A stretch of DNA of 64,000 nucleotides from Massilia sp. H6 (lineage in GTDB: Bacteria; Pseudomonadota; Gammaproteobacteria; Burkholderiales; Burkholderiaceae_D): positions 3,968,001-4,032,000 of the forward strand of contig NZ_CP103371.1 of assembly GCF_024802625.1 (NCBI RefSeq), given 5' to 3'. The notes beneath the pieces are model-generated. The model was not told where the DNA came from, did not search any database, and worked only from the letters and a program-made list of their open reading frames with translations. This document shows positions 9,661 through 13,795 of this stretch, piece by piece. Made by a program: the position numbers and the translations under genes. Within the stretch, counting starts at the first letter, position 1. The number at the start of each line of letters is the position of its first letter.

Positions 9661-10539
9661 CTATGATAGCAAGGCCTCTTCCACTTGCACAGTTGGCAGT
9701 TGCTTAATCTCGAGCGGCGCGGCATTGGCGGCATCGGCCAGCTTGCGCAGCAGGTGGGCGGCGGCCACCATGCCAAACGTTGCCGTGACCACCATGCTCG
9801 ACCCAAAGCCGGCGCAGTTCAACCCGGTCACGCTGGCCGCATCGACCGCGCAGGCGTCGCCGCTGTCCGGATAGCGCAGCGGCTCCATCGAGAACACGGC
9901 GTCGATATGGTATTTGTTCTTTTCGCCGCGGGCAAAGCCATACTGCGAGCGCAGCAGCTTGCGTACTTTTTTCAGCAGAGGCTCCTGCTCGGTGCGTCCC
10001 AGGTCGCGCACTTCGATCCTGGTGGGATCGGTCTGGCCGCCGGCGCCGCCGATGACGATCAGGGGCATCGCATTGGCGCTGCACCAGGCGATCAGGGCGG
10101 CCTTGGATTTGACGCCATCGATGGCGTCCACCACATAGTCAAACCCCTGTCCCGCCACCATCGCCTCGATATTGTCCGGATCGATGAATTCCTCGACCAG
10201 GGTGACCTTGCAAGTTGGGTTGATCTGCGCGATGCGTTGGCGTAAGGCCTCGATCTTGGCCATGCCGATGGTCGACGTGAGCGCCTGCAGCTGGCGGTTG
10301 ATGTTCGATTCGGCCACGTTGTCGAGGTCGATCAGCGTCAGCTGACCGACCGCGCTGCGCGCCAGCGCCTCCACGATCCACGAGCCGACGCCGCCGACCC
10401 CGATCACGCAAACGTGCGCCGTACGGAAGCGTTCGAGCGCACGCTCGCCATACAGACGCGCAATCCCGCCGAAGCGGCGTGCAAAGTCGATGTCGTCGTC
10501 GGGAGTGTTGTCAAGAGTGCTGGCTTGGATCGGGTTCAT
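9661..10539 (-). CDS. tcdA: tRNA threonylcarbamoyladenosine dehydratase
   Basis: 292 residues, E1/ThiF-MoeB-like. The enzyme uses ATP to cyclise t6A37 of tRNA to ct6A. It shows RFGGIARLYGERALERF at the start, the nucleotide loop GVGGVGSWIVEALARS, the adenylation segment DLDNVAESNINRQ, and RYPDSGD in the C-terminal part. Length matches E. coli TcdA. The gene is divergent from the hemerythrin-PdxH gene, with an AT-rich 88-bp shared upstream region. Confidence 0.94.
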   Translation of the reverse strand: MNPIQASTLDNTPDDDIDFARRFGGIARLYGERALERFRTAHVCVIGVGGVGSWIVEALARSAVGQLTLIDLDNVAESNINRQLQALTSTIGMAKIEALRQRIAQINPTCKVTLVEEFIDPDNIEAMVAGQGFDYVVDAIDGVKSKAALIAWCSANAMPLIVIGGAGGQTDPTRIEVRDLGRTEQEPLLKKVRKLLRSQYGFARGEKNKYHIDAVFSMEPLRYPDSGDACAVDAASVTGLNCAGFGSSMVVTATFGMVAAAHLLRKLADAANAAPLEIKQLPTVQVEEALLS

Positions 10540-10627
10540 CCCGGCATTTTAACGGACGATCGTTTCGCAACTGCACTAAAATAACTTCTCGTCAATCAAA
10601 TTATTCTCGGCTGTCAACAAACCACCC

Positions 10628-11830
10628 ATGACCCAACTTCTCCACGAGACCGCTCCCGATTTCGACCAGCCGATTGCTGTCCTCAAGCATTGCCACGGAC
10701 GCATCCGCCGCCAGCTGGCCACGCTCGACAAGCTGCTGGCTCACCTGCCCGAGTGCGGCGCCGACGAGCAGGCGCGCCAGGCGGCAGCGGCGGTGCTGAA
10801 TTATTTCGACAAGGCCGCCCACCTGCACCACGACGACGAGGAGCAAGATCTGATTCCCATGCTGCGCGCGGTGGCCCAGGGAGAGGATGCCGCCACGCTG
10901 CAGGCGCTGGCGCCGGTCATCCTGCAAGACCACCAGGACATGGACGCGCTGTGGCAAGACTTGCACGAACAGCTGGTAGCCGTGGCCGAAGGCCGCTCGG
11001 CGGTGCTCTCGGCCAGCGCGGTGCAGCGCTTCAGCCAGCGCTATTCGTCCCACATGGACCGCGAGGAAACCACCATGGCGCCGATGGCCATGCGCCTGTT
11101 CAGCCCGGAGCAGATGGCGCAGCTGGGCAAGTCGATGCAGGCGCGCCGCGGCATCGGCGGCGCGCCCGCCGCCGATGCCGCGGCGGGGGTAGGCCAGGCG
11201 GTGGCCGACCTGCGCAAGGATTACGGCCAGGCCAGCCTGAACGAAACCGAGGTAATGGACGACCCGGTGCTGCAATTTACACAGTGGTTCGAGCAAGCCC
11301 TGAAGGCCAAGGTGAACGAGCCCAATGCAATGTCGGTAGCCACCGTCGGGCTCGACGGGCGGCCGAGCTCACGTATTGTATTGGTGAAGCAATTCGACCA
11401 ACGCGGCTTTACCTGGTACACCAACTATAACAGCCGAAAGTCTGCGGAGTTGCAAAATAATCCACACGCGGCCTTGCTATTCTTTTGGAGTGAACTCGAA
11501 CGCCAGGTTCGCATTGAAGGACGCGTGGAGCGCACGTCCCCCGAGGAAAGCGACCGGTATTTCCGCAGTCGCCCGTTAAAGAGCCGCCTGTCGGCGATTG
11601 CCTCGCAACAGAGCGCTCCGATCGGCAGCCGCGCCGAGCTCGAACAGAACTACGAAGCCACCGCGCGGCAGGCTGGCGAAGATCCGGCGCGACCAGGCAA
11701 CTGGGGCGGCTTGCGCCTGGTGCCCGAGCGACTGGAGTTCTGGCAGGGACGCCGCTCCCGCTTCCACGACCGCATCGTCTACGAGCGGCAGGAAGACGGC
11801 AGCTGGAAGCGCCTGCGTTTGCAACCGTAG
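10628..11830 (+). CDS. pdxH: Hemerythrin-like domain fused to pyridoxamine 5'-phosphate oxidase
   Basis: One uninterrupted 400-residue frame. Residues 1-175 are a hemerythrin/HHE four-helix bundle with candidate diiron ligands: His 21/23, HHDDEE from 67 (ending IPML), His 102 and HMDREE from 142. Residues 193-400 are a complete FMN-dependent PdxH that oxidises pyridoxamine- or pyridoxine-phosphate to PLP with O2: [34 protein letters not shown] and the C-terminal [21 protein letters not shown]-like block. PdxH normally stands alone at about 215 residues. No stop separates the halves, but a GTG at 11201 (Val 192) could also start a near-standard PdxH. The hemerythrin half is certain by motif; its function here is inferred. 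Confidence 0.9.
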
Positions 11831-11880
11831 GGCCGGGCACAGCGCAACACCGCGCCCGGCCGTTATTGCCGGAGGTGATC

Positions 11881-13101
11881 GTGTTCGAACAGATGATCTT
11901 GTCGGCCTGGAATGCCGGCCTGCGCAACAAGCTGTCGCTGCCCTTGCGGGTAGAACTGTGGGACGGCCGGCAGCTCGAATTTTCTTCCGGTGCCGCGGAC
12001 GCGGCCGATCCGCGCGTCACCATTCGCGTGCCCGACCGCTCCGCCCTGCGCTACCTGCGCTCGCCCTCGCTGTACAACCTGGGACGGGCCTATGTCGAAG
12101 GCGCCATCGACATCAAGGGGCGCGCCGCCGACATCATCAGCGTCGGCAACAGCCTGGCCGCGCACCTGGCCGGAACCGGCAACCGCCTGGCCGATACGCT
12201 GCGCCGCGTTGCCCCGCACACGCGCGAAAAAGACGCCGCGGCCATCCGCTACCACTACGACGTCTCCAACGCCTTTTATGCTGCCTGGCTCGATCCCGGC
12301 ATGGTGTATTCGTGCGCTTATTTCGACAACGGCGACGAAGACCTGGCCACGGCGCAGCAAAACAAGATCGACCACATCCTGCGCAAGATCGCGCTGCAGC
12401 CGGGCCAGTTGTTACTCGACATCGGCTGCGGCTGGGGCGCGCTGGTGCTGCGCGCGGCGCAGCAGTTCGGGGCGCGCTGCGTCGGCATCACGCTGTCCGA
12501 TAACCAGGCCGCGCTGGCGCGCGAGCGGGTCGAACGCGCCGGCCTGCAGGGGCAGGTCGAGATCCGCCTGCAAGATTACCGCGACGTGGCCGGCCAGTTC
12601 GACCGCATCACCAGCGTGGGCATGTTCGAGCATGTCGGCGTACGGCACCTGACGGATTATTTTTCACAGATAAACAAATTACTGGTGCCGGACGGCGTCG
12701 TGATGAACCACGGAATCACCACCACCAACGCCGACAACGGCGTCTCGCCCTACGGCGGGGGCGACTTCATCGACGAATACGTGTTTCCGGACGGCGAGCT
12801 GGCCCACCTCGCCACCGTGGTGCGCGCCATGCAGGACGGCGGCCTGGAAGTACGGGACGTGGAAAACCTGCGCCGCCACTACGCCCGCACCTGCGCACTC
12901 TGGACCGACAATTTCGAGGGCAATGCCGCGCATATCCGCACGGTCACCGACGAAAAACGCTTTCGCATCTGGCACCTGTACCTGGCCGGCTGCGCCTATG
13001 CGTTCGCGCACGACCGGATCAGCCTGTACCAGATCGTGTGCGGCAAGGCGGGCATGGATCCCGAACAGATCCCGTGGTCACGCAAGTACATGTACCGGTA
13101 G
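11881..13101 (+). CDS. cfa: Cyclopropane-fatty-acyl-phospholipid synthase
   Basis: 406 residues. CFA synthases transfer a methylene from S-adenosylmethionine to unsaturated phospholipid acyl chains, stiffening the membrane in stationary phase or acid. Seen: RYHYDVSNAFYAAWLDPGMVYSCAYF, the SAM loop LLDIGCGWGALVLRAAQQFG, and the GMFEHVG segment; the last part contains the RIWHLYLAGCAYAF block. The GTG at 11881 is chosen because GGAGG lies five bases upstream; a TTG at 11866 precedes that site and an ATG at 11893 is too far from it. Confidence 0.93.
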   Translation: MFEQMILSAWNAGLRNKLSLPLRVELWDGRQLEFSSGAADAADPRVTIRVPDRSALRYLRSPSLYNLGRAYVEGAIDIKGRAADIISVGNSLAAHLAGTGNRLADTLRRVAPHTREKDAAAIRYHYDVSNAFYAAWLDPGMVYSCAYFDNGDEDLATAQQNKIDHILRKIALQPGQLLLDIGCGWGALVLRAAQQFGARCVGITLSDNQAALARERVERAGLQGQVEIRLQDYRDVAGQFDRITSVGMFEHVGVRHLTDYFSQINKLLVPDGVVMNHGITTTNADNGVSPYGGGDFIDEYVFPDGELAHLATVVRAMQDGGLEVRDVENLRRHYARTCALWTDNFEGNAAHIRTVTDEKRFRIWHLYLAGCAYAFAHDRISLYQIVCGKAGMDPEQIPWSRKYMYR

Positions 13102-13128
13102 GGTAGCCGGCCAGGCCGGCCGCCCTAC
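13098..13128. terminator. Hairpin between convergent cfa and msrA
   Basis: Two 15-base arms (13098-13112 and 13114-13128) pair at 13 of 15 positions around a single-base centre, with core GCCGGCC/GGCCGGC. The arms include the stop codons of both genes, so it can serve as a compact bidirectional terminator. There is no strong T-run. Confidence 0.6.
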
Positions 13129-13664
13129 TTCAGGCGCTCGGTAAAGGTCTTGCGAAACTTCGCCACCTTTGGCGCCACTACCAGCGCGCAATAACCCTGC
13201 AGCGGGTGCTGCGCGAAATAATTCTGGTGGTAGTCCTCGGCCTTGTACCAGGCTTCTTGCGGCAGCAACTGCGTCACCAGCGGCGCATCCCACACCGACG
13301 CCATTTCGGCCATTACCTTGCGCGCGGTCGCTTCCTGTTCGGGCGAGGTGGTGAAGATCACCGAGCGGTATTGCGGTCCGACGTCATTGCCCTGGCGGTC
13401 CTGGGTAGTCGGGTCGTGGATGGTGAAAAAAACCTCGAGAAGGTCGCGGTACGAGATCACGCTCGGGTCGAACTCCACCCGCACCACTTCGGCATGCCCG
13501 GTGGTGGCCGCGCATACCTGTTCGTAGCTCGGGTTGACCACATGCCCGCCCATATAGCCCGATTCGACCCGCGTGACGCCGCGCACTTCGAGATAGACCG
13601 CCTCCAGGCACCAGAAGCAGCCGCCGCCCAGGATGGCCACTTCGCTAGCTGTTTGCTCGCTCAT
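13125..13664 (-). CDS. msrA: Peptide-methionine (S)-S-oxide reductase
   Basis: 179 residues. MsrA repairs methionine-S-sulfoxide in proteins. The catalytic GGCFWC motif lies near residues 14-19, followed by YMGGHVVNPSYEQVCAATTGHAEVV and the metal-free Glu/Tyr signature (YRSVIF, EDYHQNYF). The start at 13664 has AAGG seven bases upstream and fits the family; an upstream in-frame extension to 13781 is not protein-like. It is convergent with cfa. Confidence 0.95.
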   Translation of the reverse strand: MSEQTASEVAILGGGCFWCLEAVYLEVRGVTRVESGYMGGHVVNPSYEQVCAATTGHAEVVRVEFDPSVISYRDLLEVFFTIHDPTTQDRQGNDVGPQYRSVIFTTSPEQEATARKVMAEMASVWDAPLVTQLLPQEAWYKAEDYHQNYFAQHPLQGYCALVVAPKVAKFRKTFTERLK

Positions 13665-13795
13665 CGCATACCTTGATTCGTCAGTTTCGATAGCTCTTAA
13701 TGTAACGCAAAGCCGTGCTATCTGCATCGCAGCAGGGAGCCGGAACCGGTCCTGGGCCCGACAATGGCATAATGGCGCCATCCTTCAAGGTTCCA

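Follow-up and report, generated by a model that had tools for sequence, protein, structure and literature searches.

HHE-type diiron sites share the motif H-HxxxE-H-HxxxE, and in FBXL5 and BRUTUS, as in the protein described here, such a domain shares one chain with another functional unit; these two are eukaryotic E3 ligases without a PdxH part (PMC12022348). The iron-centre repair proteins YtfE, RIC and ScdA contain a related HHE domain. The irons of YtfE are bound by H84, H204, H129 and H160 with E133 and E208 as bridges (PMC9268430), a ligand set similar in kind to that of the HHE half of our protein. In classical hemerythrin the ligands are five His together with a single Glu and a single Asp (PMC9388753). 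PdxH consumes O2 and yields H2O2 (PMC10969823). In the E. coli enzyme (PNPO), residues 5–18 form helix H0 in a PLP-free quadruple variant, and K72, Y129, R133 and H199 are the residues changed in a variant with an impaired active site (PMC8215295). In plant PDX3, a fusion of NAD(P)HX epimerase and PNPOx, PNPOx likewise follows an unrelated domain within a single chain; the partner domain differs from HHE. By both sequence and fold, the nearest solved relative of our HHE half is NMB1532 of Neisseria (PDB 2p0n), with which it has C22, H23, H67, H68, E71, E72, H102, H142, E146 and E147 in common; the solved chain of NMB1532 comprises 172 residues without a PdxH part and has Ala in place of H21.

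In the window, by which we mean the whole 64,000-nucleotide stretch of Massilia DNA that was analysed, an HHE domain and PdxH are encoded as one protein. The searchable open literature yielded no description of an HHE-PdxH protein, in line with the earlier note on this DNA, which knew of none; subscription journals and domain-architecture databases lay outside this search, and the architecture may already be listed somewhere. Both domains are well known. So far as searched, what is new is their combination, its fixation in a group of bacteria and its origin from a gene pair.

The fused gene and its two halves

The features of the gene are as follows.

10628–11830, forward strand: fused gene for the HHE domain and PdxH (400 amino acids; the stop codon is counted in)
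10628–11137, forward strand: HHE domain, residues 1–170 (Pfam match 15–154)
10688–11065, forward strand: putative diiron ligand codons, starting at 10688 (H21) or 10694 (H23), 10829 (H68), 10841 (E72), 10931 (H102), 11051 (H142) and 11063 (E146)
11147–11197, forward strand: linker, residues 174–190 (about 17), rich in Ala, Gly and Pro
11198–11827, forward strand: PdxH domain, residues 191–400, with R249, K254, Y311, R315, S319, R378 and H380
11201–11203, forward strand: GTG in frame (codon 192), formerly proposed as an internal start and unsupported by comparison

The 400 codons run without a stop through a complete HHE domain and then a complete PdxH. Pfam places Hemerythrin (PF01814) at residues 15–154 (66.1 bits, cut-off 25.3), PNPOx_N at 222–344 (100.7 bits, cut-off 28.1) and PNP_phzG_C at 359–400 (67.8 bits, cut-off 27), and the NCBIfam pdxH equivalog TIGR00558 scores 258.3 bits against a cut-off of 180 over profile positions 1–190 of 190. 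The joined frame is present in all 61 sampled genomes of the source genus, the source genome included; 58 have it in a single stop-free alignment, and the other three (G012, G024, G049) in two alignments that share one stop-free frame. The in-frame fusion is real: its presence throughout the genus excludes the assembly or sequencing error that the earlier note had named as one threat to its reading of two complete domains in one frame, and together with the domain scores it rules out a chance open frame.

An AlphaFold model of the whole protein contains two well-folded domains (mean pLDDT 86.6), with helices in the HHE half at 15–43, 47–62, 64–82, 85–120, 129–157 and 160–173. The span of the linker is set by the last HHE helix, which ends at 173, and by the longer PdxH match, which begins at 191. 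pLDDT falls below 50 at 178–200; a helix of low confidence is modelled at 187–196, and with a pTM of 0.51 the placement of HHE relative to PdxH is not confident. Across 136 fused loci (111 distinct sequences, from two genome sets that overlap), the gap between R174 and R196 ranges from 12 to 42 residues with a median of 21 and is rich in Ala, Gly and Pro. At the nucleotide level, third-position G+C dips to 0.36–0.64 at 11453–11527 (codons 276–300) in seven Massilia-group fused genes and is mostly 0.7–1.0 outside this block, which is the 25-codon block of lowest G+C in six of the seven, the exception being L005.

By sequence comparison, the C-terminal half has every PdxH feature that was checked. 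Searching solved structures with phmmer returned the PNP oxidases of yeast, E. coli and human for this part, and the likeness to E. coli and human PdxH comprises a full-length match, the same fold and the substrate-binding residues; the fused protein differs from them in its added N-terminal HHE domain and in that arginines 23 and 24 are not conserved. In an alignment made by hand, K254, Y311, R315 and H380 correspond to E. coli K72, Y129, R133 and H199. The window has all four, and across the fused loci K254 and H380 never vary (136 of 136), and Y311 and R315 are found in 134 of 136. Arginines 23 and 24 belong to the PLP feedback site of the E. coli enzyme: at position 205 all 136 fused loci have N, S, D, T or M, and at position 206 E stands in 132 of them; feedback-site arginine 215 is kept as R397 in all 134 loci with a residue aligned there. 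Arginines 23 and 24 are also missing at the junctions inspected in unfused relatives, so the fusion did not cause their loss. A whole-protein search of the source genome gave a single match at E ≤0.001, which makes the fused gene its sole PdxH match; a PdxJ profile exceeds its cut-off in this genome, and PdxS above its cut-off was not found there (best 29.6 against 438.45 bits). The PLP pathway present is thus the one with PdxH as its last step, and newly made PLP should pass through the fused PdxH.

For the N-terminal half, phmmer against solved structures returned NMB1532, and Foldseek with the HHE model gave the same protein (E 1.7e-5) and then, weakly, FBXL5 (E 0.02 and weaker, TM about 0.5). 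Residues H21, C22, H23, H67, H68, E71, E72, H102, H142, E146 and E147 are invariant in all 136 fused loci, each of which thus matches H-HxxxE-H-HxxxE (H21/H23, H68–E72, H102, H142–E146), and we infer that this half binds two irons in that site. Over nine pairs of relatives, dN/dS was 0.05–0.24 for HHE and 0.05–0.11 for PdxH, with HHE the higher in six. The invariant ligands and low dN/dS indicate that the HHE half is kept under purifying selection, and linker length appears hardly constrained. The His-Cys-His triplet at residues 21–23 (10688–10696) is likewise invariant in 136 of 136 loci, and its cysteine is also found in NMB1532; we know of no ligand role for C22 in the HHE fold.

The kind of HHE domain can be narrowed down. 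At position 106, which we take to be that of the second His of the helix-3 HxxxH in O2-carrying hemerythrin, none of the 136 fused loci has His (D in 120, E in 15, F in one), and the ligand set counts against an O2 carrier of the classical kind. Membership of RIC/YtfE (TIGR03652) was rejected at 30.9 bits for the HHE half and 27.5 for the whole protein against a cut-off of 204.7, and the ScdA_N domain that forms the N-terminus of RIC/YtfE has no Pfam match up to E 1 in the fused protein. RIC/YtfE is nonetheless related: all 26 members of set A1 match TIGR03652, at best with E 9.4e-9. The PA2171 persister protein (NF053874) was rejected as well (24.6 bits for the HHE half and 26.3 for the whole protein, cut-off 190), as was a defence-system protein, for which PADLOC gave no match up to E 0.01. 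The source genome has four hemerythrin-family matches, the fused gene among them.

Distribution and origin of the fusion

At the family level, 373 of 392 genomes gave a match and 19 gave none. We inspected 42 of these genomes, picked non-randomly to cover mixed genera. Four were fused without a stop (G103, G069, G078, G061); 17 had HHE and PdxH in a single alignment with at least one stop, which in G158 lies, more than once, inside a decayed HHE; 10 had the two as neighbouring matches on the same contig; and one had no PdxH match. The remaining 10 had PdxH without an adjoining HHE, so HHE is dispensable there, and judging from these relatives that keep PdxH alone, the HHE domain is accessory to PdxH. 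A further 30 chosen genomes from four genera comprised 29 with the fusion and one (G367) with PdxH alone. Named genomes were scanned with the HHE half, and the best 80 of at least 322 confirmed relatives, a selection tilted towards the window's own group, were considered. Among these 80, 71 loci were fused and nine unfused. The fused ones belong to Massilia, Telluria, Duganella, Rugamonas, Pseudoduganella, Janthinobacterium and some MAGs, with one record labelled Herbaspirillum; the unfused ones are from Collimonas (four), Glaciimonas (two), Noviherbaspirillum, a Herminiimonas MAG and one further MAG. In these three named genera and the Herminiimonas MAG, HHE and pdxH are separate, adjoining genes. 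No fusion outside the family was found among the matches listed for 300 genomes from the order and 398 from the phylum, samples that contain some family genomes and of which the listed matches are a part, so that rare fusions are possible.

The same domain order, for which the earlier note had proposed to search related genomes, thus recurs in 61 of 61 genus genomes and in 71 of the best 80 of at least 322 named loci. That note had also set against its reading any relatives with the two genes separate and a stop between them; such relatives do exist, but outside the fused group, and they show the fusion's origin.

Several single genomes depart from these patterns. A 1.7 Mb genome that groups with Collimonas in the tree (99% complete; L053, from G158) has a stop-broken HHE and an open PdxH frame and is, on its sequence, a natural example of PdxH retained while HHE decays. 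In the mostly fused genus g6, L092 (G367) has only a stand-alone, more distant PdxH (56%), and the usual neighbours do not lie within the stretch examined; either the gene was replaced or the assembly has a gap here. G370 (C279) and G078 (C181) each show another, stand-alone PdxH match in addition to the fusion, where contamination is possible. All 13 sampled genomes of the small-genome genus g7 (1.2–2.6 Mb; G066, G108, G131, G150, G166, G179, G191, G200, G210, G220, G230, G240, G250) have no PdxH match, which would fit an anaerobe, and they make up 13 of the 19 family genomes that gave no match.

The gene is flanked in the window as follows.

9661–10539, reverse strand: upstream divergent neighbour, from its sequence presumably TcdA-like; a flank in most relatives inspected
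10577–10582, forward strand: TAAAAT, candidate -10 box of the fused gene; found in most aligned Massilia-group upstream regions
11866–13101, forward strand: downstream neighbour, which we take to be cyclopropane-fatty-acid synthase-like (Cfa); a flank in most relatives inspected
13125–13781, reverse strand: further downstream flank, presumably MsrA-like

These flanks are alike in most loci, fused or unfused, with the TcdA-like gene upstream on the opposite strand and the Cfa-like and MsrA-like genes downstream; a few loci (e.g., L041, L051, L053, L138) have neither flank within the stretch examined. Four of eight HHE-less loci (L054, L055, L060, L061) still have the TcdA-like gene upstream of PdxH. 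Outside the family, the surroundings of four related HHE genes are different and varied and give no clear functional hint, so the pairing with pdxH is not merely an old inherited neighbourhood. Upstream of the fused gene, a consensus scan gave no promoter and no oxygen, peroxide or iron regulator box was recognised by eye; TAAAAT is a possible -10 box.

The fusion probably arose once, when an adjacent pair of HHE and pdxH genes became one gene, because the two are split neighbours in sister genera and the fused/unfused label changes once on the tree. This tree holds 77 rows (52 of 136 fused and 25 of 28 unfused loci; L058, L152 and L168 are the unfused loci omitted) and excludes the linker columns; it is rooted at the midpoint, with L048, L049 and L052 on long branches. 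All fused rows fall on one side of a single branch, whose support of 90/79 is moderate and below what the tool counts as firm; among 200 bootstrap trees, 88% concur. The event most likely dates to an ancestor that the Massilia-Duganella-Janthinobacterium group shares with a few closely related lines. In the 16 unfused in-frame loci, the HHE frame stops shortly past a conserved RR and pdxH begins with an ATG at column 190. As read from these alignments, the HHE stop codon was lost, and the pdxH start is also gone in present-day fused genes. Genera g23, g27 and g30 each have genomes with and without the HHE gene, which suggests that this gene, where unfused, is occasionally lost; no HHE loss was found in the 61 genomes of the window's genus.

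The lost start also bears on whether the gene gives one product or two. The earlier note had proposed that stand-alone PdxH is made, beside the full fusion, from the GTG at 11201, which is in frame and has a G-rich stretch upstream. The comparison does not support this proposal. All 16 unfused in-frame loci carry the ATG at column 190, with a ribosome-site match of at least three bases in every one and of at least four in 11, and none of the 65 fused loci carries it. Column 192 of these fused loci is GTG in 25, CTG in 23, GTC in 11 and TTG in two, so that it is start-like in 27 of 65, counting GTG and TTG; no 4-base ribosome-site match accompanies any of the 25 GTG codons, and the 3-base match found at nine of them is weak evidence. 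Another start-like codon with a 4-base match lies within columns 176–196 in seven of 65 fused loci (L014, L019, L029, L051, L070, L072, L083), at differing positions, and is a point in favour of two products. A separately made PdxH would keep its start, and the ATG is gone in every fused locus, so we consider one fused product far more probable, and two products from one gene very improbable.

Possible roles of the HHE domain

The earlier note had suggested that the diiron domain could supply, sense or scavenge O2, or link PLP synthesis to oxygen. Ranked first here, tentatively and with a probability of roughly 0.35, is the reading that the HHE domain is a tethered O2- or peroxide-reactive partner of PdxH. 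The putative diiron site, with its H-HxxxE-H-HxxxE ligands, would react with O2 and H2O2; the flexible linker would tether HHE to PdxH one to one; and beside PdxH the HHE domain would either react with the oxidase's peroxide or read the local oxygen or redox state. This reading is put forward because both O2 and H2O2 re-oxidise the HHE-type domains of the plant proteins BTS and BTSL2 (PMC12022348), and PdxH uses the one and makes the other. That the linker varies in length and is predicted to be disordered argues for proximity rather than a rigid channel between the domains. When the reduced BTS and BTSL2 domains met O2, they released H2O2 (15.6 and 24.3 µM, with 20 µM the maximum expected; PMC12022348); such an HHE domain could make peroxide instead of removing it, which weakens the case for a peroxide-quenching form. 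The tethered partner is also disfavoured by the lack of an HHE beside PdxH in 10 of the 42 chosen genomes, by the higher HHE dN/dS in six of nine pairs and by the upstream region, in which no oxygen, peroxide or iron control box was recognised by eye. PdxH is, moreover, a slow enzyme, and its peroxide output would hence be small. Some link between the domains is favoured by the position of HHE, which is joined just ahead of the segment equivalent to E. coli helix H0.

The two halves may instead be independent, the HHE domain having a redox or iron job of its own and the fusion merely fixing 1:1 co-expression with nothing exchanged. The disordered, variable linker and the unsure domain placement (pTM 0.51) agree with this, as do the sister genera that carry the pair as separate genes and the genomes that have PdxH without HHE, four of eight such loci adjoining the TcdA-like gene. 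The pairing with pdxH has, however, been maintained over many genera, with fusion in 61 of 61 genus genomes, and the four HHE genes inspected outside the family have different surroundings; independence of the halves appears rather doubtful. An arrangement resembling FBXL5, in which iron would stabilise HHE and the state of HHE would set the amount of active PdxH, would tie PLP synthesis to iron or oxygen supply, and HHE does stand just before a mobile N-terminal helix. The HHE domain of FBXL5, the nearest fold with a known function, is stabilised by iron binding (PMC12022348), the equivalent E. coli segment 5–18 forms H0 (PMC8215295), the model has its low-confidence helix at 187–196, and two E. 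coli PLP feedback arginines are not kept (positions 205 and 206). The FBXL5 match is weak, however (E 0.02, TM about 0.5), and the arginines are gone in unfused relatives too, so their loss is not linked to the fusion. We consider such a switch unlikely.

It is less likely still, indeed quite improbable, that the diiron site is an oxygen store that takes up O2 reversibly and delivers it to PdxH at low oxygen. PdxH does use O2 (PMC10969823), and genus g7, with no PdxH match in 13 of 13 genomes, would fit an anaerobe. On the other side, the ligand set is not that of classical hemerythrin, position 106 being D, E or F; the sites of FBXL5 and BTS/L autoxidise fast (PMC12022348); and a single site per chain would be a negligible store. 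A tethered O2- or peroxide-reactive partner is therefore favoured, by inference, over an O2 store.

Meaning for the bacterial group

A cofactor-making enzyme, the sole copy found in its genome, shares a chain with an iron-type domain in all sampled genomes of the genus and in related genera. For HHE domains like NMB1532, PdxH also offers a specific partner. Unfused sister genera, HHE-less genomes and the fused group form a ready-made comparison, and the protein is small and suited to testing how a hemerythrin-like domain serves an oxidase. The fused gene may even encode an iron- and oxygen-gated vitamin B6 synthase, in which HHE would signal O2, peroxide or iron status through the mobile N-terminal helix of a PdxH without two arginines of the E. 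coli PLP feedback site. We give this only a small chance; if it is true, the PLP output of a whole bacterial group would depend on its redox or iron state.
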